From positions 3,978,586 to 4,042,585 of the forward strand of contig OY735225.1 in NCBI GenBank assembly GCA_963457665.1: 64,000 nt of DNA, read 5' to 3'. Below, in pieces: positions 1 through 58,284 of this stretch. Made by a program: the position numbers and the translations under genes. The notes under the pieces were generated by a model. It had not been told where the DNA came from, searched no databases, and was given only the letters and a program-made list of their open reading frames with translations. Source of the stretch: Thysanoteuthis rhombus. Taxonomy: Eukaryota; Mollusca; Cephalopoda; Oegopsida; Thysanoteuthidae. The stretch's first letter is position 1. Each line of letters begins with the position of its first letter.

Positions 1-37
1 AGCTTACCTTTGGAGGTAAATAAGCAACAATAGTCAG

Positions 38-49
38 TATATATAATAT
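38..49 (+). promoter_or_regulatory. TATA-like Pol III upstream element of tRNA-Ile (representative)
   Basis: TATATATAATAT lies at -32 to -21 relative to the first base of the tRNA-Ile gene. It recurs at the same distance in front of the Ile genes of both arrays (for example 36998-37009 on the - strand for B1). A12 and A13 have a final G in place of T. External TATA-like elements that assist TFIIIB placement are known for tRNA genes in several invertebrates. The tRNA-Arg genes have no comparable element. Confidence 0.8.
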
Positions 50-69
50 GGGAGCGAAACGAGAGTGTC

Positions 70-143
70 GGCCGGTTAGCTCAGTTGGTTAGAGCGTCGT
101 GCTAATAACGCGAATGTCGTGGGTTCGAGCCCCATACTGGCCA
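70..143 (+). tRNA. tRNA-Ile(AAU), unit A1
   Basis: Reference copy of the Ile gene: 74 nt without an encoded CCA and without an intron. The acceptor stem GGCCGGT pairs with ACTGGCC, with one G5-U68 wobble; A73 is the discriminator. The anticodon loop CTAATAA gives AAU (read as inosine-AU), decoding Ile AUU/AUC. The T-arm is GTGGG-TTCGAGC-CCCAT. The A box TAGCTCAGTTGG and B box GGTTCGAGCCC match the Pol III consensus. The body is very close to animal tRNA-Ile(AAU) as I know it. Confidence 0.98.
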
Positions 144-150
144 AGTGATC

Positions 151-154
151 TTTT
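151..154 (+). terminator. Pol III T4 terminator of tRNA-Ile A1 (representative)
   Basis: TTTT begins 8 nt after the last tRNA base. It is present after the Ile genes of both arrays, except A15, where the run reads TCTCTT. Confidence 0.8.
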
Positions 155-555
155 GGAATCGAGTAGACATTATTGGCTCCCTCCAATGCTCAATGATTAG
201 GTTCGATTGAAAAAATCGAAAAAAAATTACTGCTGGCCCAGTAGAACAATAGGTAGAATATGACGAGCATTTCTTTCTACATGTGTGCATGGTGTAATGG
301 CCGCCTTCGTGCTATTAGTACATGAATGTGTTTACTGCGATGATGCCCGTCTTTGCTATCAATGTTTCCCTGACTCATATTGACGCAGCTATTACCGTGG
401 ATTTGGATGTTTTTTTCCTGTTCAATGTATGATAAATTCGTTTCTTCTTTTAATCCCTGCATCACAACTTGCTGATTTTATCAAGTGTACGGTGCGCTGA
501 TTTGTCAAGATTTCTTTCTTTGGCTTGATTTCTTTCGAGCAAAACACGCTGAGAA

Positions 556-628
556 GTCTCTGTAGCGCAGGGGATAGCGCGCTGGACTTCTAATCCAGAG
601 GCCGTGGGTTCGAATCCCACCAGGGATG
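556..628 (+). tRNA. tRNA-Arg(UCU), unit A1
   Basis: Reference copy of the T4 subtype: 73 nt, no intron, no encoded CCA. The acceptor GTCTCTG pairs with CAGGGAT through G1-U72 and U4-G69 wobbles; G73 is the discriminator. Anticodon stem CTGGA/TCCAG encloses loop CTTCTAA, anticodon UCU (Arg AGA/AGG). The T-arm is GTGGG-TTCGAAT-CCCAC. A box TAGCGCAGGGG and B box GGTTCGAATCC are present. Confidence 0.97.
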
Positions 629-634
629 TTTGTA

Positions 635-638
635 TTTT
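635..638 (+). terminator. Pol III T4 terminator of tRNA-Arg A1 (representative)
   Basis: TTTT begins 7 nt after the tRNA-Arg discriminator base. The same arrangement follows the Arg genes of both arrays except B1, where flanking DNA has replaced it. Confidence 0.75.
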
Positions 639-778
639 ATTTCATTCATCCTATAAACCTATAGCAGCCAGCGAACGTTTAGATTCGCTCACTGGAGGAA
701 TGCTTTGCTAGCTTACCTTTGGAGGTAAAGAAGCAACAATAATCAGTATATATAATATGGGAGCGAAACGAAAGTGTC

Positions 779-852
779 GGCCGGTTAGCTCAGTTGGTTA
801 GAGCGTCGTGCTAATAACGCAAATGTCGTGGGTTCGAGCACCATACTGGCCA
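779..852 (+). tRNA. tRNA-Ile(AAU), unit A2, damaged
   Basis: G42A breaks the C28-G42 anticodon-stem pair. C61A breaks the near-universal G53-C61 pair and alters the B box. Probably weakly transcribed or unstable. The same two changes recur in A7. Confidence 0.7.
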
Positions 853-1268
853 AGTGATCTTTTCGAATCGAGTAGACATTATTGGTTCCCTCCAATGCTC
901 AATGATTAGCTTCGATTGAAAAAATCAATTAAAAAAAAATTACCGCTGGCCCAATAGAACAATAGGTAGAATATGACGAGCATTTCTTTCTACATGTGTG
1001 CATGGTGTAATGGCCGCCTTCGTGCTATTAGTACATGAATGTGTTTACTGCGATGATGCCCGTCTTTGCTATCAATGTCTCCCTGACTCATATTGACGCA
1101 GCTATTACCGTGGATTTGGATGTTATTTTCCTGTTCAATGTATGATAAATTCGTTTCTTCTTTTAATCCCTGCATCACAACTTGCTGACTTTATCAAGTG
1201 TACGGTGCGCTGATTTGTCAAGATTTCTTTCTTTGGCTTGATTTCTTTCGAGCAAAACACGCTGAGAA

Positions 1269-1341
1269 GTCTCTGTAGCGCAGGGGATAGCGCGCTGGAC
1301 TTCTAATCCAGAGGCCATGGGTTCGAATCCCACCAGGGATG
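1269..1341 (+). tRNA. tRNA-Arg(UCU), unit A2
   Basis: T4 subtype with G49A, which loses the outer T-stem pair to C65. The same change is in A7. Confidence 0.88.
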
Positions 1342-1492
1342 TTTGTATTTTATTTCATTCATCCTATTCAAGCTATAGCAGCCAGCGAACGTTTAGATTC
1401 GCTCACTGGAGAAATGCTTTGCTAGCTTACCTTTGGAGGTATATAAGCAACAATAGTCAGTATATATAATATGGGAGCGAAACGAGAGTGTC

Positions 1493-1566
1493 GGCCGGTT
1501 AGCTCAGTTGGTTAGAGCGTCGTGCTAATAACGCGAATGTCGTGGGTTCGAGCCCCATACTGGCCA
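1493..1566 (+). tRNA. tRNA-Ile(AAU), unit A3
   Basis: Identical to the A1 reference. Confidence 0.97.
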
Positions 1567-1978
1567 AGTGATCTTTTGAAATCGAGTAGACATTATTGGC
1601 TCCCTCCAATGCTCAATGATTAGCTTTGATTGAAAAAATCGAAAAAAAATTACTGCTGGCCCAATAGAACAATAGGTAGAAAATGACGAGCATTTCTTTC
1701 TACATGTGTGCATGGTGTAATGGCCGCCTTCGTGCTATTAGTACATGAATGTGTTTACTGCAATGATGCCCGTCTTTGCTATCAATGTCTCCCTGACTCA
1801 TATTGACGCAGCTATTACCCCGGATTTGGATGTTATTTTCCTGTTCAATGTATGATAAATTCGTTTCTTCTTTTAATCCCTCCATCACAACTTGCTGACT
1901 TTATCAAGTGTACGGTGCGCTCATTTGTCAAGATTTCTTTCTTATGCTTGATTTCTTTCGAGCAAAATACGCTGAGAA

Positions 1979-2051
1979 GTCCCTGTAGCGCAGGGGATAG
2001 CGCGCTGGACTTCTAATCCAGAGGCCGTGGGTTCGAATCCCACCAGGGATG
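1979..2051 (+). tRNA. tRNA-Arg(UCU), unit A3
   Basis: Reference for the C4 subtype: acceptor GTCCCTG gives a full Watson-Crick C4-G69 pair. This is the majority form in both arrays. Confidence 0.97.
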
Positions 2052-2202
2052 TTTGTATTTTATTTCATTCATCCTATTCAAGCTATAGCAGCCAGCGAAC
2101 GTTTAGATTCGCTCACTGGAGGAATGCTTTGCTAGCTTTCCTTTGGAGGTAAATAAGCAACAATAGTCAGTATATATAATATGGGAGCGAAACGAAAGTG
2201 TC

Positions 2203-2276
2203 GGCTGGTTAGCTCAGTTGGTTAGAGCGTCGTGCTAATAACGCGAATGTCGTGGGTTCGAGCCCCATACTGGCCA
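2203..2276 (+). tRNA. tRNA-Ile(AAU), unit A4
   Basis: C4T converts C4-G69 to a U-G wobble. Shared with A9. Confidence 0.94.
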
Positions 2277-2692
2277 AGTGATCTTTTCGAATCGAGTAGA
2301 CATTATTGGCTCCCTCCAATGCTCAATGATTAGGTTCGATTGAAAAAATCAATTAAAAAAAAATTACCGCTGGCCCAATAGAACAATAGGTAGAATATGA
2401 CGAGCATTTCTTTCTACATGTGTGCATGGTGTAATGGCCGCCTTCGTGCTATTAGTACATGAATGTGTTTACTGCGATGATGCCCGTCTTTGCTATCAAT
2501 GTCTCCCTGACTCATATTGACGCAGCTATTACCTTGGATTTGGATGTTATTTTCCTGTTCAATGTATGATAAATTCGTTTCTTCTTTTAATCCCTGCATC
2601 ACAACTTGCTGACTTTATCAAGTGTACGGTGCGCTGATTTGTCAAGATTTCTTTCTTTGGCTTGATTTCTTTCGAGCAAAACACGCTGAGAA

Positions 2693-2765
2693 GTCTCTGT
2701 AGCGCAGGGGATAGCGCGCTGGACTTCTAATCCAGAGGCCGTGGGTTCGAATCCCACCAGGGATG
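2693..2765 (+). tRNA. tRNA-Arg(UCU), unit A4
   Basis: T4 subtype, otherwise intact. Confidence 0.96.
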
Positions 2766-2916
2766 TTTGTATTTTATTTCATTCATCCTATTCAAGCTAT
2801 AGCAGCCAGCGAACGTTTAGATTCGCTCACTGGAGGAATGCTTTGCTAGCTTTCCTTTGGAGGTAAATAAGCAACAGTAGTCAGTATATATAATATGGGA
2901 GCGAAACGAAAGTGTC

Positions 2917-2990
2917 GGCCGGTTAGCTCAGTTGGTTAGAGCGTCGTGCTAATAACGCGAATGTCGTGGGTTCGAGCCCCATACTGGCCA
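2917..2990 (+). tRNA. tRNA-Ile(AAU), unit A5
   Basis: Identical to A1. Confidence 0.97.
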
Positions 2991-3402
2991 AGTGATCTTT
3001 TCGAATCGAGTAGACATTATTGGCTCCCTCCAATGCTCAATGATTAGGTTCGATTGAAAAAATCGAAAAAAAATTACTTCTGGCCCAATAGAACAATAGG
3101 TAGAATATGACGAGCATTTCTTTCTACATGTGTGCATGGTGTAATGGCCGCCTTCGTGCTATTAGTACATGAATGTGTTTACTGCGATGATGCCAGTCTT
3201 TGCTATCAATGTCTCCCTGACTCATATTGACGCAGCTATTACCGTGGATTTGGATGTTATTTTCCTGTTCAATGTATGATAAATTCGTTTCTTCTTTTAA
3301 TCCCTCCATCACAACTTGCTGACTTTATCAAGTGTACGGTGCGCTGATTTGTCAAGATTTTTTTGTTTGGTTTGATTTCTTTCGAGCAAAACACGCTGAG
3401 AA

Positions 3403-3475
3403 GTCCCTGTAGCGCAGGGGATAGCGCGCTGGACTTCTAATCCAGAGGCCGTGGGTTCGAATCCCACCAGGGATG
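3403..3475 (+). tRNA. tRNA-Arg(UCU), unit A5
   Basis: C4 subtype, intact. Confidence 0.97.
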
Positions 3476-3626
3476 TTTGTATTTTATTTCATTCATCCTA
3501 TTCAAGCTATAGCAGCCAGTGAACGTTTAGATTCGCTCACTGGAGGAATGCTTTGCTAGCTTACCTTTGGAGGTAAATAAGCAACAATAGTCAGTATATA
3601 TAATATGGGAGCGAAACGAGAGTGTC

Positions 3627-3700
3627 GGCCGGTTAGCTCAGTTGGTTAGAGCGTCGTGCTAATAACGCGAATGTCGTGGGTTCGAGCCCCATACTGGCCA
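3627..3700 (+). tRNA. tRNA-Ile(AAU), unit A6
   Basis: Identical to A1. The whole unit is a near copy of A1, including a rare spacer variant after the Arg gene. Confidence 0.97.
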
Positions 3701-4112
3701 AGTGATCTTTTGGAATCGAGTAGACATTATTGGCTCCCTCCAATGCTCAATGATTAGGTTCGATTGAAAAAATCGAAAAAAAATTACTGCTGGCCCAATA
3801 GAACAATAGGTAGAATATGACGAGCATTTCTTTCTACATGTGTGCATGGTGTAATGGCCGCCTTCGTGCTATTAGTACATGAATGTGTTTACTGCGATGA
3901 TGCCCGTCTTTGCTATCAATGTTTCCCTGACTCATATTGACGCAGCTATTACCGTGGATTTGGATGTTTTTTTCCTGTTCAATGTATGATAAATTCGTTT
4001 CTTCTTTTAATCCCTGCATCACAACTTGCTGATTTTATCAAGTGTACGGTGCGCTGATTTGTCAAGATTTCTTTCTTTGGCTTGATTTCTTTCGAGCAAA
4101 ACACGCTGAGAA

Positions 4113-4185
4113 GTCTCTGTAGCGCAGGGGATAGCGCGCTGGACTTCTAATCCAGAGGCCGTGGGTTCGAATCCCACCAGGGATG
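4113..4185 (+). tRNA. tRNA-Arg(UCU), unit A6
   Basis: T4 subtype, intact. Confidence 0.96.
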
Positions 4186-4335
4186 TTTGTATTTTATTTC
4201 ATTCATCCTATAAACCTATAGCAGCCAGCGAACGTTTAGATTCGCTCACTGGAGGAATGCTTTGCTAGCTTACCTTTGGAGGTAAAGAAGCAACAATAAT
4301 CAGTATATATAATATGGGAGCGAAACGAAAGTGTC

Positions 4336-4409
4336 GGCCGGTTAGCTCAGTTGGTTAGAGCGTCGTGCTAATAACGCAAATGTCGTGGGTTCGAGCACCA
4401 TACTGGCCA
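4336..4409 (+). tRNA. tRNA-Ile(AAU), unit A7, damaged
   Basis: Carries the same G42A and C61A as A2, so the lesion was copied with its unit. Confidence 0.7.
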
Positions 4410-4825
4410 AGTGATCTTTTCGAATCGAGTAGACATTATTGGTTCCCTCCAATGCTCAATGATTAGCTTCGATTGAAAAAATCAATTAAAAAAAAATTAC
4501 CGCTGGCCCAATAGAACAATAGGTAGAATATGACGAGCATTTCTTTCTACATGTGTGCATGGTGTAATGGCCGCCTTCGTGCTATTAGTACATGAATGTG
4601 TTTACTGCGATGATGCCCGTCTTTGCTATCAATGTCTCCCTGACTCATATTGACGCAGCTATTACCGTGGATTTGGATGTTTTTTTCCTGTTCAATGTAT
4701 GATAAATTCGTTTCTTCTTTTAATCCCTGCATCACAACTTGCTGACTTTATCAAGTGTACGGTGCGCTGATTTGTCAAGATTTCTTTCTTTGGCTTGATT
4801 TCTTTCGAGCAAAACACGCTGAGAA

Positions 4826-4898
4826 GTCTCTGTAGCGCAGGGGATAGCGCGCTGGACTTCTAATCCAGAGGCCATGGGTTCGAATCCCACCAGGGATG
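4826..4898 (+). tRNA. tRNA-Arg(UCU), unit A7
   Basis: T4 subtype with G49A, as in A2. Confidence 0.88.
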
Positions 4899-5049
4899 TT
4901 TGTATTTTATTTCATTCATCCTATTCAAGCTATAGCAGCCAGCGAACGTTTAGATTCGCTCACTGGAGAAATGCTTTGCTAGCTTACCTTTGGAGGTATA
5001 TAAGCAACAATAGTCAGTATATATAATATGGGAGCGAAACGAGAGTGTC

Positions 5050-5123
5050 GGCCGGTTAGCTCAGTTGGTTAGAGCGTCGTGCTAATAACGCGAATGTCGT
5101 GGGTTCGAGCCCCATACTGGCCA
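5050..5123 (+). tRNA. tRNA-Ile(AAU), unit A8
   Basis: Identical to A1. Confidence 0.97.
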
Positions 5124-5535
5124 AGTGATCTTTTGAAATCGAGTAGACATTATTGGCTCCCTCCAATGCTCAATGATTAGCTTCGATTGAAAAAATCGAA
5201 AAAAAATTACTGCTGGCCCAATAGAACAATAGGTAGAAAATGACGAGCATTTCTTTCTACATGTGTGCATGGTGTAATGGCCGCCTTCGTGCTATTAGTA
5301 CATGAATGTGTTTACTGCAATGATGCCCGTCTTTGCTATCAATGTCTCCCTGACTCATATTGACGCAGCTATTACCCCGGATTTGGATGTTATTTTCCTG
5401 TTCAATGTATGATAAATTCGTTTCTTCTTTTAATCCCTCCATCACAACTTGCTGACTTTATCAAGTGTACGGTGCGCTCATTTGTCAAGATTTCTTTCTT
5501 ATGCTTGATTTCTTTCGAGCAAAATACGCTGAGAA

Positions 5536-5608
5536 GTCCCTGTAGCGCAGGGGATAGCGCGCTGGACTTCTAATCCAGAGGCCGTGGGTTCGAATCCCAC
5601 CAGGGATG
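5536..5608 (+). tRNA. tRNA-Arg(UCU), unit A8
   Basis: C4 subtype, intact. Confidence 0.97.
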
Positions 5609-5759
5609 TTTGTATTTTATTTCATTCATCCTATTCAAGCTATAGCAGCCAGCGAACGTTTAGATTCGCTCACTGGAGGAATGCTTTGCTAGCTTTCCTT
5701 TGGAGGTAAATAAGCAACAATAGTCAGTATATATAATATGGGAGCGAAACGAAAGTGTC

Positions 5760-5833
5760 GGCTGGTTAGCTCAGTTGGTTAGAGCGTCGTGCTAATAACG
5801 CGAATGTCGTGGGTTCGAGCCCCATACTGGCCA
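5760..5833 (+). tRNA. tRNA-Ile(AAU), unit A9
   Basis: C4T wobble, as in A4. Confidence 0.94.
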
Positions 5834-6248
5834 AGTGATCTTTTCGAATCGAGTAGACATTATTGGCTCCCTCCAATGCTCAATGATTAGGTTCGATTGA
5901 AAAAATCAATTAAAAAAAATTACCGCTGGCCCAATAGAACAATAGGTAGAATATGACGAGCATTTCTTTCTACATGTGTGCATGGTGTAATGGCCGCCTT
6001 CGTGCTATTAGTACATGAATGTGTTTACTGCGATGATGCCCGTCTTTGCTATCAATGTCTCCCTGACTCATATTGACGCAGCTATTACCTTGGATTTGGA
6101 TGTTATTTTCCTGTTCAATGTATGATAAATTCGTTTCTTCTTTTAATCCCTGCATCACAACTTGCTGACTTTATCAAGTGTACGGTGCGCTGATTTGTCA
6201 AGATTTCTTTCTTTGGCTTGATTTCTTTCGAGCAAAACACGCTGAGAA

Positions 6249-6321
6249 GTCTCTGTAGCGCAGGGGATAGCGCGCTGGACTTCTAATCCAGAGGCCGTGG
6301 GTTCGAATCCCACCAGGGATG
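6249..6321 (+). tRNA. tRNA-Arg(UCU), unit A9
   Basis: T4 subtype, intact. Confidence 0.96.
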
Positions 6322-6472
6322 TTTGTATTTTATTTCATTCATCCTATTCAAGCTATAGCAGCCAGCGAACGTTTAGATTCGCTCACTGGAGGAATGCTTT
6401 GCTAGCTTTCCTTTGGAGGTAAATAAGCAACAGTAGTCAGTATATATAATATGGGAGCGAAACGAAAGTGTC

Positions 6473-6546
6473 GGCCGGTTAGCTCAGTTGGTTAGAGCGT
6501 CGTGCTAATAACGCGAATGTCGTGGGTTCGAGCCCCATACTGGCCA
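6473..6546 (+). tRNA. tRNA-Ile(AAU), unit A10
   Basis: Identical to A1. Confidence 0.97.
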
Positions 6547-6965
6547 AGTGATCTTTTCGAATCGAGTAGACATTATTGGCTCCCTCCAATGCTCAATGAT
6601 TAGGTTCGATTGAAAAAATCAATTAAAAAAAAATTACCGCTGGCCCAATAGAACAATAGGTAGAATATGACGAGCATTTCTTTCTACATGTGTGCATGGT
6701 GTAATGGAGTCTTCGTGCTATTAGTACATGAATGTGTTTACTGCGATGATGCCCGTCTTTGCTATCAATGTCTCCCTGACTCATATTGACGCAGCTATTA
6801 CCGTGGATTTGGATGTTTTTTTTTTCCCTGTTCAATGTATGATAAATTCGTTTCTTCTTTTAATCCCTGCATCACAACTTGCTGACTTTATCAAGTGTAC
6901 GGTGCGCTGATTTGTCAAGATTTCTTTGTTTGGCTTGATTTCTTTCGTGCAAAACACGCTGAGAA

Positions 6966-7038
6966 GTCCCTGTAGCGCAGGGGATAGCGCGCTGGACTTC
7001 TAATCCAGAGGCCGTGGGTTCGAATCCCACCAGGAATG
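6966..7038 (+). tRNA. tRNA-Arg(UCU), unit A10
   Basis: C4 subtype with G70A, giving a C3-A70 acceptor mismatch. Confidence 0.85.
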
Positions 7039-7189
7039 TTGGTATTTTATTTCATTCATCCTATTCAAGCTATAGCAGCCAGCGAACGTTTAGATTCGCT
7101 CACTGGAGGAATGCTTTGCTAGCTTTCCTTTGGAGGTAAATAAGCAACAATAGTCAGTATATATAATATGGGAGCGAAACGAAATTGTC

Positions 7190-7263
7190 GGCCGGTTAGC
7201 TCAGTTGGTTAGAGCGTCGTGCTAATAACGCGAATGTCGTGGGTTCGAGCCGCATACTGGCCA
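7190..7263 (+). tRNA. tRNA-Ile(AAU), unit A11
   Basis: C62G breaks the G52-C62 T-stem pair and alters the B box. Confidence 0.8.
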
Positions 7264-7679
7264 AGTGATCTTTTCGAATCGAGTAGACATTATTGGCTCC
7301 CTCCAATGCTCAATGATTAGGTTTGATTGAAAAAATCAATTAAAAAAAAATTACCGCTGGCCCAATAGAACAATAGGTAGAATATGACGAGCATTTCTTT
7401 CTACATGTGTGCATGGTGTAATGGCCGCCTTCGTGCTATTAGTACATGAATGTGTTTACTGCGATGATGCCCGTCTTTGCTATCAATGTCTCCCTGACTC
7501 ATATTGACGCAGCTATTACCGTGGATTTGGATGTTTTTCTCCTGTTCAATGTATGATAAATTCGTTTCTTCTTTTAATCCCTGCATCACAACTTGCTGAC
7601 TTTATCAAGTGTACGGTGCGCTGATTTGTCAAGATTTCTTTCTTTGGCTTGATTTCTTTCGAGCAAAACACGCTGAGAA

Positions 7680-7752
7680 GTCTCTGTAGCGCAGGGGATA
7701 GCGCGCTGGACTTCTAATCCAGAGGCCGTGGGTTCGAATCCCACCAGGGATG
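7680..7752 (+). tRNA. tRNA-Arg(UCU), unit A11
   Basis: T4 subtype, intact. Confidence 0.96.
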
Positions 7753-7903
7753 TTTGTATTTTATTTCATTCATCCTATTCAAGCTATAGCAGCCAGTGAA
7801 CGTTTAGATTCGCTCACTGGAGGAATGCTTTGCTAGCTTACCTTTGGAGGTAAATAAGCAACAATAGTCAGTATATATAATAGGGGAGCGAAACGAGAGT
7901 GTC

Positions 7904-7977
7904 GGCCGGTTAGCTCAGTTGGTTAGAGCGTCGTGCTAATAACGCGAATGTCGTGGGTTCGAGCCCCATACTGGCCA
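7904..7977 (+). tRNA. tRNA-Ile(AAU), unit A12
   Basis: Gene identical to A1. The upstream TATA-like element ends in G rather than T. Confidence 0.96.
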
Positions 7978-8389
7978 AGTGATCTTTTGGAATCGAGTAG
8001 ACATTATTGGCTCCCTCCAATGCTCAATGATTAGGTTCGATTGAAAAAATCGAAAAAAAATTACTTCTGGCCCAATAGAACAATAGGTAGAATATGACGA
8101 GCATTTCTTTCTACATGTGTGCATGGTGTAATGGCCGCCTTCGTGCTATTAGTACATGAATGTGTTTACTGCGATGATGCCCGTCTTTGCTATCAATGTC
8201 TCCCTGACTCATATTGACGCAGCTATTACCGTGGATTTGGATGTTATTTTCCTGTTCAATGTATGATAAATTCGTTTCTTCTTTTAATCCCTCCATCACA
8301 ACTTGCTGACTTTATCAAGTGTACGGTGCGCTGATTTGTCAAGATTTTTTTGTTTGGTTTGATTTCTTTCGAGCAAAACACGCTGAGAA

Positions 8390-8462
8390 GTCCCTGTAGC
8401 GCAGGGGATAGCGCGCTGGACTTCTAATCCAGAGGCTGTGGGTTCGAATCCCACCAGGGATG
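8390..8462 (+). tRNA. tRNA-Arg(UCU), unit A12
   Basis: C4 subtype with C48T in the variable region. Confidence 0.94.
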
Positions 8463-8613
8463 TTTGTATTTTATTTCATTCATCCTATTCAAGCTATAGC
8501 AGCCAGTGAACGTTTAGATTCGCTCACTGGAGGAATGCTTTGCTAGCTTACCTTTGGAGGTAAATAAGCAACAATAGTCAGTATATATAATAGGGGAGCG
8601 AAACGAGAGTGTC

Positions 8614-8687
8614 GGCCGGTTAGCTCATTTGGTTAGAGCGTCGTGCTAATAACGCGAATGTCGTGGGTTCGAGCCCCATACTGGCCA
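8614..8687 (+). tRNA. tRNA-Ile(AAU), unit A13
   Basis: G15T removes the purine of the 15-48 Levitt pair and changes the A box. The TATA element has the same end variant as A12. Confidence 0.82.
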
Positions 8688-9099
8688 AGTGATCTTTTGG
8701 AATCGAGTAGACATTATTGGCTCCCTCCAATGCTCAATGATTAGGTTCGATTGAAAAAATCGAAAAAAAATTACTTCTGGCCCAATAGAACAATAGGTAG
8801 AATATGACGAGCATTTCTTTCTACATGTGTGCATGGTGTAATGGCCGCCTTCGTGCTATTAGTACATGAATGTGTTTACTGCGATGATGCCCGTCTTTGC
8901 TATCAATGTCTCCCTGACTCATATTGACGCACCTATTACCGTGGATTTGGATGTTATTTTCCTGTTCAATGTATGATAAATTCGTTTCTTCTTTTAATCC
9001 CTCCATCACAACTTGCTGACTTTATCAAGTGTACGGTGCGCTGATTTGTCAAGATTTTTTTGTTTGGTTTGATTTCTTTCGAGCAAAACACGCTGAGAA

Positions 9100-9172
9100 G
9101 TCCCTGTAGCGCAGGGGATAGCGCGCTGGACTTCTAATCCAGAGGCCGTGGGTTCGAATCCCACCAGGGATG
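9100..9172 (+). tRNA. tRNA-Arg(UCU), unit A13
   Basis: C4 subtype, intact. Confidence 0.97.
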
Positions 9173-9323
9173 TTTGTATTTTATTTCATTCATCCTATTC
9201 AAGCTATAGCAGCCAGCGAACGTTTAGATTCGCTCACTGGAGGAATGCTTTGCTAGCTTTCCTCTGGAGGTAAATAAGCAACAATAGTCTGTATATATAA
9301 TATGGGAGCAAAACGAAAGTGTC

Positions 9324-9397
9324 GGCCGGTTAGCTCAGTTGGTTAGAGCGTCGTGCTAATAACGCGAATGTCGTGGGTTCGAGCCCCATACTGGCCA
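9324..9397 (+). tRNA. tRNA-Ile(AAU), unit A14
   Basis: Identical to A1. Confidence 0.97.
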
Positions 9398-9809: not shown

Positions 9810-9882
9810 GTCCCTGTAGCGCAGGGGATAGCGCGCTGGACTTCTAATCCAGAGGCCGTGGGTTCGAATCCCACCAGGGATG
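9810..9882 (+). tRNA. tRNA-Arg(UCU), unit A14
   Basis: C4 subtype, intact. Confidence 0.97.
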
Positions 9883-48107: not shown

Positions 48108-48181
48108 TGGCCAGTATGGGGCTCGAACCCACGACATTCGCGTTATTAGCACGACGCTCTAACCAACTGAGCTAACCGGCC
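48108..48181 (-). tRNA. tRNA-Ile(AAU), unit B17
   Basis: Identical to A1. Confidence 0.97.
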
Positions 48182-48817: not shown

Positions 48818-48891
48818 TGGCCAGTATGGGGCTCGAACCCACGACATTCGCGTTATTAGCACGACGCTCTAACCAACTGAGCTAACCGGCC
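48818..48891 (-). tRNA. tRNA-Ile(AAU), unit B18
   Basis: Identical to A1. Confidence 0.97.
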
Positions 48892-49042
48892 GACACTTTC
48901 GTTTCGCTCCCATATTATATATACTGACTATTGTTGCTTATTTACCTCCAAAAGAAAACTAGCAAAGCATTCCTCCAGTGAGCGTATCTAAACGTTCGCT
49001 GGCTGCTATAGCTTGAATAGGATGAATGAAATAAAATGCAAA

Positions 49043-49115
49043 CATCCCTGGTGGGATTCGAACCCACGGCCTCTGGATTAGAAGTCCAGCGCGCTATCCC
49101 CTGCGCTACAGGGAC
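49043..49115 (-). tRNA. tRNA-Arg(UCU), unit B19
   Basis: C4 subtype, intact. Confidence 0.97.
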
Positions 49116-49527
49116 TTCTCAGCGTGTTTTGCTCGAAAGAAATCAAGCCAAAGAAAGAAATCTTGACAAATCAGCGCACCGTACACTTGATAAAGTCAGC
49201 AAGTTGTGATGGACGGATTAAAAGAAGAAACGAATTTATCATACATTGAACAGGAAAAAAACGTCCAAATCCACGGTAATAGGTGCGTCAATATGAGTCA
49301 GGGAGACATTGATAGCAAAGACGGGCATCATCGCAGTAAACACATTCATGTACTAATAGCACGAAGGCGGCCATTACACCATGCACACATGTAGAAAGAA
49401 ATGCTCGTCATATTCTACCTATTGTTCTATTGGGCCAGCGGTAATTTTTTTTCGATTTTTTCAATCGAACCTAATCATTGAGCATTTGAGGGAGCCAATA
49501 ATGTCTACTCGATTCCAAAAGATCACT

Positions 49528-49601
49528 TGGCCAGTATGGGGCTCGAACCCACGACATTCGCGTTATTAGCACGACGCTCTAACCAACTGAGCTAACCGGC
49601 C
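49528..49601 (-). tRNA. tRNA-Ile(AAU), unit B19
   Basis: Identical to A1. Confidence 0.97.
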
Positions 49602-49752
49602 GACACTTTCGTTTCGCTCCCATATTATATATACTGACTATTGTTGCTTATTTACCTCCAAAGGAAAGCTAGCAAAGCATTCCTCCAGTGAGCGTATCTA
49701 AACGTTCGCTGGCTGCTATAGCTTGAATAGGATGAATGAAATAAAATGCAAA

Positions 49753-49825
49753 CATCCCTGGTGGGATTCGAACCCACGGCCTCTGGATTAGAAGTCCAGC
49801 GCGCTATCCCCTGCGCTACAGGGAC
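49753..49825 (-). tRNA. tRNA-Arg(UCU), unit B20
   Basis: C4 subtype, intact. A small indel in the 5' flank (GCGTTTTTGC) is shared only with B24. Confidence 0.97.
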
Positions 49826-50236
49826 TTCTCAGCGTTTTTGCTCGAAAGAAATCAAGCCAAAGAAAGAAATCTTGACAAATCAGCGCACCGTACACTTGAT
49901 AAAGTCAGCAAGTTGTGATGGACGGATTAAAAGAAGAAACGAATTTATCATACATTGAACAGGAAAAAAACATCCAAATCCACGGTAATAGGTGCGTCAA
50001 TATGAGTCAGGGAGACATTGATAGCAAAGACGGGCATCATCGCAGTAAACACATTCATGTACTAATAGCACGAAGGCGGCCATTACACCATGCACACATG
50101 TAGAAAGAAATGCTCGTCATATTCTACCTATTGTTCTATTGGGCCAGCGGTAATTTTTTTTCGATTTTTTCAATCGAACCTAATCATTGAGCATTGGAGG
50201 GAGCCAATAATGTCTACTCGATTCCAAAAGATCACT

Positions 50237-50310
50237 TGGCCAGTATGGGGCTCGAACCCACGACATTCGCGTTATTAGCACGACGCTCTAACCAACTGAG
50301 CTAACCGGCC
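50237..50310 (-). tRNA. tRNA-Ile(AAU), unit B20
   Basis: Identical to A1. Confidence 0.97.
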
Positions 50311-50461
50311 GACACTTTCGTTTCGCTCCCATATTATATATACTGACTATTGTTGCTTATTTACCTCCAAAGGAAACCTAGCAAAGCATTCCTCCAGTGA
50401 GCGTATCTAAACGTTCGCTGGCTGCTATAGCTTGAATAGGATGAATGAAATAAAATGCAAA

Positions 50462-50534
50462 CATCCCTGGTGGGATTCGAACCCACGGCCTCTGGATTAG
50501 AAGTCCAGCGCGCTATCCCCTGCGCTACAGGGAC
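50462..50534 (-). tRNA. tRNA-Arg(UCU), unit B21
   Basis: C4 subtype, intact. Confidence 0.97.
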
Positions 50535-50946
50535 TTCTCAGCGTGTTTTGCTCGAAAGAAATCAAGCCAAAGAAAGAAATCTTGACAAATCAGCGCACCG
50601 TACACTTGATAAAGTCAGCAAGTTGTGATGGACGGATTAAAAGAAGAAACGAATTTATCATACATTGAACAGGAAAAAAACGTCCAAATCCACGGTAATA
50701 GGTGCGTCAATATGAGTCAGGGAGACATTGATAGCAAAGACGGGCATCATCGCAGTAAACACATTCATGTACTAATAGCACGAAGGCGGCCATTACACCA
50801 TGCACACATGTAGAAAGAAATGCTCGTCATATTCTACCTATTGTTCTATTGGGCCAGCGGTAATTTTTTTTCGATTTTTTCAATCGAACCTAATCATTGA
50901 GCATTGGAGGGAGCCAATAATGTCTACTCGATTCCAAAAGATCACT

Positions 50947-51020
50947 TGGCCAGTATGGGGCTCGAACCCACGACATTCGCGTTATTAGCACGACGCTCTA
51001 ACCAACTGAGCTAACCGGCC
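50947..51020 (-). tRNA. tRNA-Ile(AAU), unit B21
   Basis: Identical to A1. Confidence 0.97.
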
Positions 51021-51171
51021 GACACTTTCGTTTCGCTCCCATATTATATATACTGACTATTGTTGCTTATTTACCTCCAAAGGAAAGCTAGCAAAGCATT
51101 CCTCCAGTGAGCGTATCTAAACGTTCGCTGGCTGCTATAGCTTGAATAGGATGAATGAAATAAAATGCAAA

Positions 51172-51244
51172 CATCCCTGGTGGGATTCGAACCCACGGCC
51201 TCTGGATTAGAAGTCCAGCGCGCTATCCCCTGCGCTACAGGGAC
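51172..51244 (-). tRNA. tRNA-Arg(UCU), unit B22
   Basis: C4 subtype, intact. Confidence 0.97.
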
Positions 51245-51656
51245 TTCTCAGCGTGTTTTGCTCGAAAGAAATCAAGCCAAAGAAAGAAATCTTGACAAAT
51301 CAGCGCACCGTACACTTGATAAAGTCAGCAAGTTGTGATGGACGGATTAAAAGAAGAAACGAATTTATCATACATTGAACAGGAAAAAAACATCCAAATC
51401 CACGGTAATAGGTGCGTCAATATGAGTCAGGGAGACATTGATAGCAAAGACGGGCATCATCGCAGTAAACACATTCATGTACTAATAGCACGAAGGCGGC
51501 CATTACACCATGCACACATGTAGAAAGAAATGCTCGTCATATTCTACCTATTGTTCTATTGGGCCAGCGGTAATTTTTTTTCGATTTTTTCAATCGAACC
51601 TAATCATTGAGCATTGGAGGGAGCCAATAATGTCTACTCGATTCCAAAAGATCACT

Positions 51657-51730
51657 TGGCCAGTATGGGGCTCGAACCCACGACATTCGCGTTATTAGCA
51701 CGACGCTCTAACCAACTGAGCTAACCGGCC
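51657..51730 (-). tRNA. tRNA-Ile(AAU), unit B22
   Basis: Identical to A1. Confidence 0.97.
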
Positions 51731-51881
51731 GACACTTTCGTTTCGCTCCCATATTATATATACTGACTATTGTTGCTTATTTACCTCCAAAGGAAAGCTA
51801 GCAAAGCATTCCTCCAGTGAGCGTATCTAAACGTTCGCTGGCTGCTATAGCTTGAATAGGATGAATGAAATAAAATGCAAA

Positions 51882-51954
51882 CATCCCTGGTGGGATTCGA
51901 ACCCACGGCCTCTGGATTAGAAGTCCAGCGCGCTATCCCCTGCGCTACAGGGAC
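51882..51954 (-). tRNA. tRNA-Arg(UCU), unit B23
   Basis: C4 subtype, intact. Confidence 0.97.
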
Positions 51955-52366
51955 TTCTCAGCGTGTTTTGCTCGAAAGAAATCAAGCCAAAGAAAGAAAT
52001 CTTGACAAATCAGCGCACCGTACACTTGATAAAGTCAGCAAGTTGTGATGGACGGATTAAAAGAAGAAACGAATTTATCATACATTGAACAGGAAAAAAA
52101 CGTCCAAATCCACGGTAATAGGTGCGTCAATATGAGTCAGGGAGACATTGATAGCAAAGACAGGCATCATCGCAGTAAACACATTCATGTACTAATAGCA
52201 CGAAGGCGGCCATTACACCATGCACACATGTAGAAAGAAATGCTCGTCATATTCTACCTATTGTTCTATTGGGCCAGCGGCAATTTTTTTTCGATTTTTT
52301 CAATCGAACCTAATCATTGAGCATTTGAGGGAGCCAATAATGTCTACTCGATTCCAAAAGATCACT

Positions 52367-52440
52367 TGGCCAGTATGGGGCTCGAACCCACGACATTCGC
52401 GTTATTAGCACGACGCTCTAACCAACTGAGCTAACCGGCC
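52367..52440 (-). tRNA. tRNA-Ile(AAU), unit B23
   Basis: Identical to A1. Flanking variants are shared with B27. Confidence 0.97.
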
Positions 52441-52591
52441 GACACTTTCGTTTCGCTTCCATATTATATATACTGACTATTGTTGCTTATTTACCTCCAA
52501 AGGAAAGCTAGCAAAGCATTCCTCCAGTGAGCGTATCTAAACGTTCGCTGGCTGCTATAGCTTGAATAGGATGAATGAAATAAAATGCAAA

Positions 52592-52664
52592 CATCCCTGG
52601 TGGGATTCGAACCCACGGCCTCTGGATTAGAAGTCCAGCGCGCTATCCCCTGCGCTACAGGGAC
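52592..52664 (-). tRNA. tRNA-Arg(UCU), unit B24
   Basis: C4 subtype, intact. 5' flank indel as in B20. Confidence 0.97.
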
Positions 52665-53075
52665 TTCTCAGCGTTTTTGCTCGAAAGAAATCAAGCCAAA
52701 GAAAGAAATCTTGACAAATCAGCGCACCGTACACTTGATAAAGTCAGCAAGTTGTGATGGACGGATTAAAAGAAGAAACGAATTTATCATACATTGAACA
52801 GGAAAAAAACATCCAAATCCACGGTAATAGGTGCGTCAATATGAGTCAGGGAGACATTGATAGCAAAGACGGGCATCATCGCAGTAAACACATTCATGTA
52901 CTAATAGCACGAAGGCGGCCATTACACCATGCACACATGTAGAAAGAAATGCTCGTCATATTCTACCTATTGTTCTATTGGGCCAGCGGTAATTTTTTTT
53001 CGATTTTTTCAATCGAACCTAATCATTGAGCATTGGAGGGAGCCAATAATGTCTACTCGATTCCAAAAGATCACT

Positions 53076-53149
53076 TGGCCAGTATGGGGCTCGAACCCAC
53101 GACATTCGCGTTATTAGCACGACGCTCTAACCAACTGAGCTAACCGGCC
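53076..53149 (-). tRNA. tRNA-Ile(AAU), unit B24
   Basis: Identical to A1. Confidence 0.97.
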
Positions 53150-53300
53150 GACACTTTCGTTTCGCTCCCATATTATATATACTGACTATTGTTGCTTATT
53201 TACCTCCAAAGGAAAGCTAGCAAAGCATTCCTCCAGTGAGCGTATCTAAACGTTCGCTGGCTGCTATAGCTTGAATAGGATGAATGAAATAAAATGCAAA

Positions 53301-53373
53301 CATCCCTGGTGGGATTCGAACCCACGGCCTCTGGATTAGAAGTCCAGCGCGCTATCCCCTGCGCTACAGGGAC
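53301..53373 (-). tRNA. tRNA-Arg(UCU), unit B25
   Basis: C4 subtype, intact. Confidence 0.97.
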
Positions 53374-53785
53374 TTCTCAGCGTGTTTTGCTCGAAAGAAA
53401 TCAAGCCAAAGAAAGAAATCTTGACAAATCAGCGCACCGTACACTTGATAAAGTCAGCAAGTTGTGATGGACGGATTAAAAGAAGAAACGAATTTATCAT
53501 ACATTGAACAGGAAAAAAACGTCCAAATCCACGGTAATAGGTGCGTCAATATGAGTCAGGGAGACATTGATAGCAAAGACGGGCATCATCGCAGTAAACA
53601 CATTCATGTACTAATAGCACGAAGGCGGCCATTACACCATGCACACATGTAGAAAGAAATGCTCGTCATATTCTACCTATTGTTCTATTGGGCCAGCGGT
53701 AATTTTTTTTCGATTTTTTCAATCGAACCTAATCATTGAGCATTGGAGGGAGCCAATAATGTCTACTCGATTCCAAAAGATCACT

Positions 53786-53859
53786 TGGCCAGTATGGGGC
53801 TCGAACCCACGACATTCGCGTTATTAGCACGACGCTCTAACCAACTGAGCTAACCGGCC
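53786..53859 (-). tRNA. tRNA-Ile(AAU), unit B25
   Basis: Identical to A1. Confidence 0.97.
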
Positions 53860-54010
53860 GACACTTTCGTTTCGCTCCCATATTATATATACTGACTATT
53901 GTTGCTTATTTACCTCCAAAGGAAAGCTAGCAAAGCATTCCTCCAGTGAGCGTATCTAAACGTTCGCTGGCTGCTATAGCTTGAATAGGATGAATGAAAT
54001 AAAATGCAAA

Positions 54011-54083
54011 CATCCCTGGTGGGATTCGAACCCACGGCCTCTGGATTAGAAGTCCAGCGCGCTATCCCCTGCGCTACAGGGAC
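54011..54083 (-). tRNA. tRNA-Arg(UCU), unit B26
   Basis: C4 subtype, intact. Confidence 0.97.
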
Positions 54084-54495
54084 TTCTCAGCGTGTTTTGC
54101 TCGAAAGAAATCAAGCCAAAGAAAGAAATCTTGACAAATCAGCGCACCGTACACTTGATAAAGTCAGCAAGTTGTGATGGACGGATTAAAAGAAGAAACG
54201 AATTTATCATACATTGAACAGGAAAAAAACATCCAAATCCACGGTAATAGGTGCGTCAATATGAGTCAGGGAGACATTGATAGCAAAGACGGGCATCATC
54301 GCAGTAAACACATTCATGTACTAATAGCACGAAGGCGGCCATTACACCATGCACACATGTAGAAAGAAATGCTCGTCATATTCTACCTATTGTTCTATTG
54401 GGCCAGCGGTAATTTTTTTTCGATTTTTTCAATCGAACCTAATCATTGAGCATTGGAGGGAGCCAATAATGTCTACTCGATTCCAAAAGATCACT

Positions 54496-54569
54496 TGGCC
54501 AGTATGGGGCTCGAACCCACGACATTCGCGTTATTAGCACGACGCTCTAACCAACTGAGCTAACCGGCC
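54496..54569 (-). tRNA. tRNA-Ile(AAU), unit B26
   Basis: Identical to A1. Confidence 0.97.
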
Positions 54570-54720
54570 GACACTTTCGTTTCGCTCCCATATTATATAT
54601 ACTGACTATTGTTGCTTATTTACCTCCAAAGGAAAGCTAGCAAAGCATTCCTCCAGTGAGCGTATCTAAACGTTCGCTGGCTGCTATAGCTTGAATAGGA
54701 TGAATGAAATAAAATGCAAA

Positions 54721-54793
54721 CATCCCTGGTGGGATTCGAACCCACGGCCTCTGGATTAGAAGTCCAGCGCGCTATCCCCTGCGCTACAGGGAC
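54721..54793 (-). tRNA. tRNA-Arg(UCU), unit B27
   Basis: C4 subtype, intact. Confidence 0.97.
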
Positions 54794-55205
54794 TTCTCAG
54801 CGTGTTTTGCTCGAAAGAAATCAAGCCAAAGAAAGAAATCTTGACAAATCAGCGCACCGTACACTTGATAAAGTCAGCAAGTTGTGATGGACGGATTAAA
54901 AGAAGAAACGAATTTATCATACATTGAACAGGAAAAAAACGTCCAAATCCACGGTAATAGGTGCGTCAATATGAGTCAGGGAGACATTGATAGCAAAGAC
55001 AGGCATCATCGCAGTAAACACATTCATGTACTAATAGCACGAAGGCGGCCATTACACCATGCACACATGTAGAAAGAAATGCTCGTCATATTCTACCTAT
55101 TGTTCTATTGGGCCAGCGGCAATTTTTTTTCGATTTTTTCAATCGAACCTAATCATTGAGCATTTGAGGGAGCCAATAATGTCTACTCGATTCCAAAAGA
55201 TCACT

Positions 55206-55279
55206 TGGCCAGTATGGGGCTCGAACCCACGACATTCGCGTTATTAGCACGACGCTCTAACCAACTGAGCTAACCGGCC
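55206..55279 (-). tRNA. tRNA-Ile(AAU), unit B27
   Basis: Identical to A1. Confidence 0.97.
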
Positions 55280-55430
55280 GACACTTTCGTTTCGCTTCCA
55301 TATTATATATACTGACTATTGTTGCTTATTTACCTCCAAAGGAAAGCTAGCAAAGCATTCCTCCAGTGAGCGTATCTAAACGTTCGCTGGCTGCTATAGC
55401 TTGAATAGGATGAATGAAATAAAATGCAAA

Positions 55431-55503
55431 CATCCCTGGTGGGATTCGAACCCACGGCCTCTGGATTAGAAGTCCAGCGCGCTATCCCCTGCGCTACAGG
55501 GAC
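55431..55503 (-). tRNA. tRNA-Arg(UCU), unit B28
   Basis: C4 subtype, intact. Confidence 0.97.
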
Positions 55504-55915
55504 TTCTCAGCGTGTTTTGCTCGAAAGAAATCAAGCCAAAGAAAGAAATCTTGACAAATCAGCGCACCGTACACTTGATAAAGTCAGCAAGTTGTGATGG
55601 ACGGATTAAAAGAAGAAACGAATTTATCATACATTGAACAGGAAAAAAACGTCCAAATCCACGGTAATAGGTGCGTCAATATGAGTCAGGGAGACATTGA
55701 TAGCAAAGACAGGCATCATCGCAGTAAACACATTCATGTACTAATAGCACGAAGGCGGCCATTACACCATGCACACATGTAGAAAGAAATGCTCGTCATA
55801 TTCTACCTATTGTTCTATTGGGCCAGCGGTAATTTTTTTTCGATTTTTTCAATCGAACCTAATCATTGAGCATTTGAGGGAGCCAATAATGTCTACTCGA
55901 TTCCAAAAGATCACT

Positions 55916-55989
55916 TGGCCAGTATGGGGCTCGAACCCACGACATTCGCGTTATTAGCACGACGCTCTAACCAACTGAGCTAACCGGCC
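55916..55989 (-). tRNA. tRNA-Ile(AAU), unit B28
   Basis: Identical to A1. Confidence 0.97.
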
Positions 55990-56140
55990 GACACTTTCGT
56001 TTCGCTTCCATATTATATATACTGACTATTGTTGCTTATTTACCTCCAAAGGAAAGCTAGCAAAGCATTCCTCCAGTGAGCGTATCTAAACGTTCGCTGG
56101 CTGCTATAGCTTGAATAGGATGAATGAAATAAAATGCAAA

Positions 56141-56213
56141 CATCCCTGGTGGGATTCGAACCCACGGCCTCTGGATTAGAAGTCCAGCGCGCTATCCCCT
56201 GCGCTACAGGGAC
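56141..56213 (-). tRNA. tRNA-Arg(UCU), unit B29
   Basis: C4 subtype, intact. Confidence 0.97.
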
Positions 56214-56622
56214 TTCTCAGCGTGTTTTGCTCGAAAGAAATCAAGCCAAAGAAAGAAATCTTGACAAATCAGCGCACCGTACACTTGATAAAGTCAGCAA
56301 GTTGTGATGGACAGATTAAAAGAAGAAACGAATTTATCATACATTGAACAGGAAAAAAACGTCCAAATCCACGGTAATAGGTGCGTCAATATGAGTCAGG
56401 GAGACATTGATAGCAAAGACGGGCATCATCGCAGTAAACACATTCATGTACTAATAGCACGAAGGCGTCCATTACACCATGCACACATGTAGAAAGAAAT
56501 GCTCGTCATATTCTACCTATTGTTCTATTGGGCCAGCAGTAATTTTTTTTTAATTGATTTTTTCAATCGAACCTAATCATTGAGCATTGGAGGGAGCCAA
56601 TACTCGATTCCAAAAGATCACT

Positions 56623-56696
56623 TGGCCAGTATGGGGCCCGAACCCACGACATTCGCGTTATTAGCACGACGCTCTAACCAACTGAGCTAACCGGCC
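56623..56696 (-). tRNA. tRNA-Ile(AAU), unit B29, damaged
   Basis: A58G removes the near-invariant T-loop A58 (reverse-Hoogsteen pair with T54 and the m1A58 site) and changes the B box. It is the only coding-region change I see among the Ile genes of array B. The 3' flank also carries a 7-nt deletion. Confidence 0.75.
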
Positions 56697-56847
56697 GACA
56701 CTTTCGTTTCGCTTCCATATTATATATACTGACTATTGTTGCTTATTTACCTCCAAAGGAAAGCTAGCAAAGCATTCCTCCAGTGAGCGTATCTAAACGT
56801 TCGCTGGCTGCTATAGCTTGAATAGGATGAATGAAATAAAATGCAAA

Positions 56848-56920
56848 CATCCCTGGTGGGATTCGAACCCACGGCCTCTGGATTAGAAGTCCAGCGCGCT
56901 ATCCCCTGCGCTACAGGGAC
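56848..56920 (-). tRNA. tRNA-Arg(UCU), unit B30
   Basis: C4 subtype, intact. Confidence 0.97.
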
Positions 56921-57332
56921 TTCTCAGCGTGTTTTGCTCGAAAGAAATCAAGCCAAAGAAAGAAATCTTGACAAATCAGCGCACCGTACACTTGATAAAG
57001 TCAGCAAGTTGTGATGGACGGATTAAAAGAAGAAACGAATTTATCATACATTGAACAGGAAAAAAACGTCCAAATCCACGGTAATAGGTGCGTCAATATG
57101 AGTCAGGGAGACATTGATAGCAAAGACGGGCATCATCGCAGTAAACACATTCATGTACTAATAGCACGAAGGCGGCCATTACACCATGTACACATGTAGA
57201 AAGAAATGCTTGTCATATTCTACCTATTGTTCTATTGGGCCAGCGGTAATTTTTTTTCGATTTTTTCAATCGAACCTAATCATTGAGCATTGGAGGGAGC
57301 CAATAATGTCTACTCGATTCCAAAAGATCACT

Positions 57333-57406
57333 TGGCCAGTATGGGGCTCGAACCCACGACATTCGCGTTATTAGCACGACGCTCTAACCAACTGAGCTAA
57401 CCGGCC
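57333..57406 (-). tRNA. tRNA-Ile(AAU), unit B30
   Basis: Identical to A1. Confidence 0.97.
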
Positions 57407-57557
57407 GACACTTTCGTTTCGCTCCCATATTATATATACTGACTATTGTTGCTTATTTACCTCCAAAGGAAACCTAGCAAAGCATTCCTCCAGTGAGCGT
57501 ATCTAAACGTTCGCTGGCTGCTATAGCTTGAATAGGATAAATGAAATAAAATACAAA

Positions 57558-57630
57558 CATCCCTGGTGGGATTCGAACCCACGGCCTCTGGATTAGAAGT
57601 CCAGCGCGCTATCCCCTGCGCTACAGGGAC
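57558..57630 (-). tRNA. tRNA-Arg(UCU), unit B31
   Basis: C4 subtype, intact. Confidence 0.97.
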
Positions 57631-58042
57631 TTCTCAGCGTGTTTTGCTCGAAAGAAATCAAGCCAAAGAAAGAAATCTTGACAAATCAGCGCACCGTACA
57701 CTTGATAAAGTCAGCAAGTTGTGATGGACGGATTAAAAGAAGAAACGAATTTATCATACATTGAACAGGAAAAAAACATCCAAATCCACGGTAATAGGTG
57801 CGTCAATATGAGTCAGGGAGACATTGATAGCAAAGACGGGCATCATCGCAGTAAACACATTCATGTACTAATAGCACGAAGGCGGCCATTACACCATGCA
57901 CACATGTAGAAAGAAATGCTCGTCATATTCTACCTATTGTTCTATTGGGCCAGCGGTAATTTTTTTTCGATTTTTTCAATCGAACCTAATCATTGAGCAT
58001 TGGAGGGAGCCAATAATGTCTACTCGATTCCAAAAGATCACT

Positions 58043-58116
58043 TGGCCAGTATGGGGCTCGAACCCACGACATTCGCGTTATTAGCACGACGCTCTAACCA
58101 ACTGAGCTAACCGGCC
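58043..58116 (-). tRNA. tRNA-Ile(AAU), unit B31
   Basis: Identical to A1. Last complete tRNA of array B. Confidence 0.97.
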
Positions 58117-58267
58117 GACACTTTCGTTTCGCTCCCATATTATATATACTGACTATTGTTGCTTATTTACCTCCAAAGGAAAGCTAGCAAAGCATTCCTC
58201 CAGTGAGCGTATCTAAACGTTCGCTGGCTGCTATAGCTTGAATAGGATGAATGAAATAAAATACAAA

Positions 58268-58284
58268 CATCCCTGGTAGGATTT
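58268..58284 (-). pseudogene. tRNA-Arg 3' remnant at the array B edge
   Basis: Only about 17 nt of the Arg 3' end (discriminator, acceptor 3' strand and start of the T-arm, with one change) remain before unrelated DNA. This marks the right breakpoint of array B. Confidence 0.9.

Follow-up and report, generated by a model that had tools for sequence, protein, structure and literature searches.

In Xenopus laevis, a tandem repeat of tRNA genes (tDNA), an animal unit of ~3 kb with multiple tRNA types, is linked to use in the oocyte and early embryo. Large clusters of tDNA, as well as tandem repeats of tRNA genes, have been described in other eukaryotes too (PMC2888827, PMC4041453, PMC2652664, PMC12308677), and tandem tRNA arrays as such are already known. 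We analyzed a 64,000-nucleotide window of the genome of the cephalopod Thysanoteuthis rhombus (contig OY735225.1, C30:3978586-4042585; assembly GCA_963457665.1, 2.73 Gb in 514 contigs, many of chromosome size), to which we added 150 kb of flank on the left and 50 kb on the right. The window contains part of a tandem array (array A) in which every unit of ~710 bp carries one tRNA-Ile and one tRNA-Arg gene. Array A shows those features of tandem tRNA arrays that we examined, namely, head-to-tail units with mostly intact tRNA genes, greater likeness of units within than between arrays or arms, and stronger purifying selection in genes than in spacers; its units also carry A and B boxes, a TATA box, and T4 terminators. 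It stands out for a unit of two genes (Ile and Arg), for inverted arms of unequal length, for its size, and for the existence of a diverged sister array (array B). In a search by title and start of abstract that covered mainly open-access papers, we found no published Ile-Arg array. We favor, with a probability of about 0.72, the reading that the array is a tandem tRNA gene family that evolves in concert and would serve Ile/Arg tRNA dosage.

Several described systems share parts of this design. The arrays of Entamoeba also consist of head-to-tail tRNA units whose homogenization is credited to concerted evolution, with several arrays per genome (PMC2652664). However, almost all tRNA genes of Entamoeba histolytica lie in arrays of 25 unit types with at most five genes each (PMC2652664), whereas here we found one two-gene unit type, plus dispersed copies, in a 2.7-Gb genome. 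The human 1q23.3 variable-number tandem repeat is likewise an animal tandem repeat with tRNA genes in its unit and ~98% likeness between units, but its unit is GC rich and 7.3 kb long, numbers 9 to 43 per allele, and contains a CTCF site (PMC4041453); here, a two-gene unit of ~710 bp is present 186 times in two opposite arms. In the SYY (Ser/Tyr) cluster of Arabidopsis, two tRNA types are tandemly repeated together, with many sequence-variant copies as in array A. That cluster belongs to a plant, contains 54 clustered Tyr genes versus 186 + 186 genes here, and remains silent across most tissues but is put to use in cells of the root tip (PMC12308677). Clusters of fifty or more tRNA genes also occur in animals, namely, in fish and Nematostella (PMC2888827), and chromosome 4 of zebrafish carries 60% of the predicted tRNA genes (PMC11574265); nothing in the available portions of these two reports mentions inverted arms or an Ile-Arg unit of two genes.

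ARAGORN called 125 tRNA genes in the window: 63 Ile(AAT), 61 Arg(TCT), and a single gene in which an Arg body bears the anticodon TTT. The left side (positions 1..22691, plus strand) contains 32 Ile(AAT) and 31 called Arg(TCT) genes, all on the plus strand, and the right side (36417..58283, minus strand) contains 31 Ile(AAT) and 30 Arg(TCT) genes, all on the minus strand. The innermost gene of the right side (36419-36491, minus strand) is the Arg body with the TTT anticodon, called tRNA-Lys, and completes a set of 31 Ile-body and 31 Arg-body genes. With 125 near-identical genes at near-constant spacing, a chance model is needless. The left array crosses the window edge and starts 87.6 kb beyond it, at window coordinate -87,563. 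The full array A thus comprises 155 right-facing (+) and 31 left-facing (-) units, opposed across a 13.7-kb loop, each with one Ile-body and one Arg-body gene (372 genes, every one of them called as a tRNA). An earlier note on the window had claimed at least 32 + 31 head-to-tail units of ~710 bp, facing each other across a 13.6-kb spacer (13,657 bp by our measurement), with more than 120 Ile(AAU) and Arg(UCU) tRNA genes in a 1:1 ratio. These claims were borne out, the ratio now over 372 genes and with one of the 125 calls reading as Lys, and the full locus proved larger. The note had also described the layout as palindromic. The inverted pairing stands, but the balance does not: the left arm measures 110.3 kb and the right arm 21.9 kb, and the pair looks nearly balanced in the window partly because the window edge cut the left arm. 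Array A is therefore an unequal inverted pair.

We then looked at the ends of the arms. On its inner side (22641..22759, plus strand), the left arm closes with an Arg gene broken at position 22691 (29.5 bits with Rfam), which is followed by three short shards of the unit that keep the unit order (unit positions 102-115, 143-165, and 293-315), as would be expected from deletion or template switching. The loop (22760..36416) is non-array DNA in which no relic of the unit was detected at E values up to 0.01. The right arm breaks off on its outer side within an Arg gene, and the boundaries are distinct at all four arm ends. These observations bear on the concern that the assembly collapsed, expanded, or falsely inverted the array. 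Tandem arrays are hard to assemble, and the copy number comes from a single assembly. Nevertheless, the arrays contain no N bases (0), the four ends differ, the two arms differ in private variants and unit lengths, and a second, diverged array has its own boundaries, all of which makes an assembly artifact very unlikely. A single collapsed or mis-joined array, the refutation that the earlier note had envisaged, is likewise unsupported, as each arm carries its own variants, with the copy number still that of one assembly.

For unit comparisons, 184 complete units (154 left, 30 right) were extracted and aligned. The complete left-arm units range from 698 to 717 bp, most commonly 707 bp (93/154), and 23 of the 30 right-arm units have 710 bp. 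One right-arm unit of 556 bp (window 46133-46762) carries an internal deletion and retains both tRNA genes. Mean divergence is 1.7% among left-arm units, 0.7% among right-arm units, and 1.9% between the arms. In a tree of the units, those of the right arm form one clade (30/30, support of 0.89) nested among 107 other units (support of 0.76); outgroup rooting was not clean, and the grouping of the right-arm units is a split independent of the rooting. One base is private to the right arm (30/30 right units versus 0/154 left), and a 36-mer from this arm has 21 copies genome-wide, every one of them in the right arm. The arms have thus evolved separately, and because of its own clade, its private base, and its arm-restricted 36-mer, we regard the right arm as most likely a genuine inverted segment that has since had a history of its own, rather than an assembly echo.

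The left arm bears the marks of local duplication. The nearest relative of a unit lies within seven units in 108/154 cases (ties being given to the closer one), runs of up to seven units repeat at lags such as 2, 4, 5, and 7, and there are 17 sets of identical units. This pattern of similarity fits local duplication combined with homogenization. Units are also closer to each other within an array than between arrays A and B, which diverge by ~8 to 11%.

The typical unit reads, in order, TATATATAATA at -32, the Ile gene, TTTT, a spacer of ~410 bp, the Arg gene, and TTTT. In the first unit of the window, all on the plus strand, these elements correspond to the TATA box TATATATAATA at 38..48, a tRNA-Ile(AAT) gene with the array consensus at 70..143, its T4 terminator for RNA polymerase III (Pol III) at 151..154 (7 nt 3' of the gene), an intronless tRNA-Arg(TCT) gene one base off the consensus at 556..628, and a second T4 terminator at 635..638 (6 nt 3' of the gene). 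The TATA box is present in 186/186 units of array A and unchanged in 184/184 aligned units. The Ile terminator keeps its offset and length in 184/186 copies and the Arg terminator does so in 183/186, although these near-constant T4 tracts are no more constant than many spacer stretches. The consensus sequence is common to 125/186 Ile and 124/186 Arg copies, and no newly broken stem pair was seen in 143/186 Ile and 164/186 Arg copies (307/372 genes). The consensus A and B boxes are retained in 172 and 172 of the 186 Ile copies and in 180 and 176 of the 186 Arg copies, respectively. In the stretch scanned with Rfam, seven intact genes score 64 to 76 bits (gathering score of 29). A permissive Rfam scan of two units revealed no family other than tRNA above the gathering score, plastid and enterobacterial matches falling below threshold. 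A common upstream motif, GAGCRAAAC, ~18 to 19 nt before both genes, was weak (shuffle p = 0.025 for 9-mers and 0.07 for 10-mers) and is not claimed.

Array B is a second, all-forward array of similar Ile-Arg units (~708 bp) on the same chromosome, 6.1 Mb from array A, that spans C30 ~10.1442 to 10.2386 Mb. We read 17 complete units of it directly, in four stretches, and the remainder is inferred from a B-specific probe with 74 exact matches, all forward; by its span, we estimate ~133 units (~266 genes). No mirrored reverse arm was seen in the two stretches read for it (10.080-10.083 and 10.092-10.096 Mb). At the right end of array B, an Ile gene is followed, from its 3' end onward, by sequence that by eye looks like the flank of a dispersed Ile gene, a junction that suggests recombination between tRNA genes.

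Comparison of the two arrays, and of genes with spacers within array A, bears on whether the genes are maintained. Between the consensus of array A and that of array B (from 7 units), 0/147 gene sites differ, versus 41/554 sites outside the genes (Fisher p = 8.6e-5), and with all 17 B units we counted no fixed difference (0) in genes and 43 elsewhere. Within array A, two of the 530 11-base windows of spacer are free of change, namely, the TATA block and one other, and none of the other A/T-rich windows is (0/56). Moreover, non-CpG variants reach fewer copies in genes than in spacers (mean of 2.0 versus 5.6; Mann-Whitney p = 0.0007, a rough value as the sites are linked). We regard these as marks of purifying selection, both on the tRNA bodies and on the promoter of the Ile gene: because gene sites and TATA box are more conserved than the spacers, genes and promoter look selected rather than carried along. 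Whether the locus is made of expressed genes or is a selfish or structural satellite had been left open by the earlier note, and this conservation would narrow the choice toward functional genes. A satellite, or structural DNA, made up of tRNA genes that are passengers or serve only as TFIIIC-bound insulators or chromatin boundaries would fit the large size, tandem order, inverted arms, and local duplication blocks, and a boundary role has been proposed for a tRNA repeat in human and mouse (PMC4041453). However, a pure satellite leaves unexplained both the contrast between genes and other sites across the arrays and the invariant TATA box of array A; where no constraint would be expected anywhere in the unit, TATA box and genes are conserved. 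A boundary role, for its part, should require the internal boxes and not exact tRNA bodies. We therefore consider this explanation quite unlikely.

Several observations weigh against a tRNA gene family maintained for dosage. Variable sites make up no smaller a share of the genes (0.35 and 0.44) than of the spacers (0.31), and selection on single copies within the arrays is therefore weak or absent. C35, the middle anticodon base, is the second most variable Arg position (8/184 units versus a mean of 1.1), and a different anticodon is found in 10/186 Arg bodies (5 TTT, 4 TAT, and 1 TCA), with 1/186 for the Ile bodies. In array B, the non-consensus rate of the Arg genes (0.023) is close to that of the spacers (0.028), with 0.009 for Ile; 2/17 Arg and 9/17 Ile copies equal the array A consensus, stem pairs are broken in 5/17 Arg and 4/17 Ile copies, one Ile copy lacks 8 bases, and 2/17 units have one changed base in the TATA block. 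The Arg half of array B may thus be relaxed. Counted per site, CpG transitions are 2.3 to 2.8 times as frequent as other C>T changes, both in genes and in spacers, which could reflect germline methylation and silencing. The arrays show only T4 terminators, while dispersed Ile copies have T5 or longer in 8/11 cases and T4 in 3/11 (by eye). The zero-mismatch dispersed Ile copies came from an exact-match search, making their identity partly one of ascertainment, and the unit tree lacks a clean root.

Part of this evidence would suit a silenced reserve, that is, a mostly heterochromatic locus, idle or active only in a special cell type, whose genes stay alike mainly through gene conversion. The CpG transition excess in genes and spacers, the frequent anticodon changes, and the drift of the Arg genes of array B would all agree with it, as does the precedent of the SYY cluster with its silence in the majority of tissues and its activity in the root tip (PMC12308677). 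On the other hand, the conservation of genes and TATA box between the arrays implies that the genes are probably used at some time, and the CpG observed/expected ratio of the unit is ~1.0, versus 0.74 in the loop. We judge a silenced reserve to be a serious contender with somewhat less than an even chance, an estimate that overlaps with that for the dosage gene family, the two not being exclusive.

In the gene family that we favor, the unit would consist of two separate tandem Pol III genes, an Ile gene that has internal A and B boxes and a T4 terminator and is preceded at -32 by a TATA box, and an Arg gene with internal boxes and its own T4. The units would multiply and stay alike via local duplication, unequal exchange, and gene conversion, the exchange mechanism being our inference. 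Selection would retain gene bodies and Ile promoter alike, and the locus could thereby raise tRNA-Ile and tRNA-Arg dosage jointly. The right arm most likely arose when a segment of the left array was inverted and then homogenized separately, and array B would be a diverged sister of array A on the same chromosome. The array may be transcribed and may yield extra tRNA, and, by analogy with the Arabidopsis SYY cluster, it may serve a stage or tissue where demand is high. A bolder proposal, which we consider unlikely, is that one chromosome acts as a dedicated tRNA amplifier, with at least two arrays and more than 600 genes by estimate, locked in a 1:1 Ile/Arg ratio for a programmed state such as oogenesis, and doubles as a nursery in which Arg bodies with new anticodons (UUU, UAU, and UCA) arise and spread.

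We also looked for copies of the genes and of the unit elsewhere in the genome. The exact Ile gene occurs 244 times (175 forward, 69 reverse), of which 125 copies (95 and 30) lie within the array A locus. Other exact copies include lone genes, their flanks unrelated, on C7 (two), C11, C29, and several places on C30. Six of the 39 reverse-strand copies outside the array A locus were placed, and a further array is possible among the ~33 unplaced ones. Three Arg genes met by chance beside dispersed Ile genes are 1, 1, and 0 bases off the array consensus. Two Ile genes at C30 10.114 and 10.126 Mb (L026 2538-2611 and L027 1525-1598) form an inverted duplicate with 96% identity over 1.7 kb; tRNA-Met(CAT) was called once near each of them and twice to the right of array B (L028). 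An exact spacer probe matched 153 + 35 times genome-wide and 148 + 30 times in the array A locus. Of the 10 matches outside, the one placed is an orphan piece of the unit at C30:3.567 Mb (L021 1299-1819), 324 kb from array A, which covers unit positions 51-564 at 96.7%. Its Ile gene is intact, its Arg gene is cut after 12 bases, a long AT microsatellite lies alongside, and its closest neighbor in the tree is a left-arm unit. We rejected the unit as a tRNA-derived mobile element such as a short interspersed nuclear element (SINE) or Helenus (PMC10886601), the spacer probe not being interspersed through the genome.

Other places on C30 point to an older association of the two genes. On the opposite strand, ~5 kb beyond the left arm (window -93033 to -92242, minus strand), we found a succession of at least five decayed tRNA-like stretches (Ile, Arg, Ile, Arg, and Arg), at spacings of ~120 to 240 bp that are tighter than in the present unit; they are possibly an older, dead array. 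We set aside low-threshold ARAGORN calls on this decayed stretch, which look spurious. An Arg gene and an Ile gene lie ~400 bp apart at C30:37.8 Mb, with an unrelated spacer, and at C30 16.90 and 16.91 Mb, there are neighboring Ile and Arg genes in opposite orientations. Because of the relic stretch and these neighboring genes, the Ile-Arg linkage looks older than the present unit, and it may have been amplified more than once.

The remaining features of the region lie in the loop and the flanks. The loop contains microsatellites, tRNA-derived SINE-like stretches, and a decayed stretch resembling a long interspersed nuclear element (LINE) at ~28423-29332, with a reverse-transcriptase match (RVT_1, E value of 4e-5, below the Pfam cutoff) and an ATG-repeat tail; its next reading frame matched GCFC below the cutoff, probably by chance. 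Copies related to this stretch are present in both flanks of array A, and LINE-like repeats occur elsewhere in the genome. One of the tRNA-derived SINE-like stretches, recognized by eye (window 24185-24339), has relatives in the right flank. Among the best loop and flank matches listed (at most 12 per comparison, from 29, 18, and 75), none looks mirrored as in a larger inverted duplication of the flanks, and we rejected mirrored flanks around array A, the best matches listed looking like interspersed repeats instead. Stretches at window 59228-59430 and 62856-62926 and in the right flank (L016 3283-3387) read by eye as exons. These putative exons, which start ~1 kb outside the right arm, would belong to a PNPT1-like gene (mitochondrial polynucleotide phosphorylase); a Pfam scan of two short putative exons of this gene, the 59228 stretch being outside the scan, gave no match.

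The locus offers a natural setting in which to test why coupled tRNA arrays are built in genomes. Its sister arrays, with diverged spacers and unchanged consensus genes, would make selection on tRNA genes measurable within one genome, and marked copies would allow expression to be traced to individual arms and arrays. The altered anticodons found among the hundreds of copies bear, in turn, on the evolution of tRNA identity.

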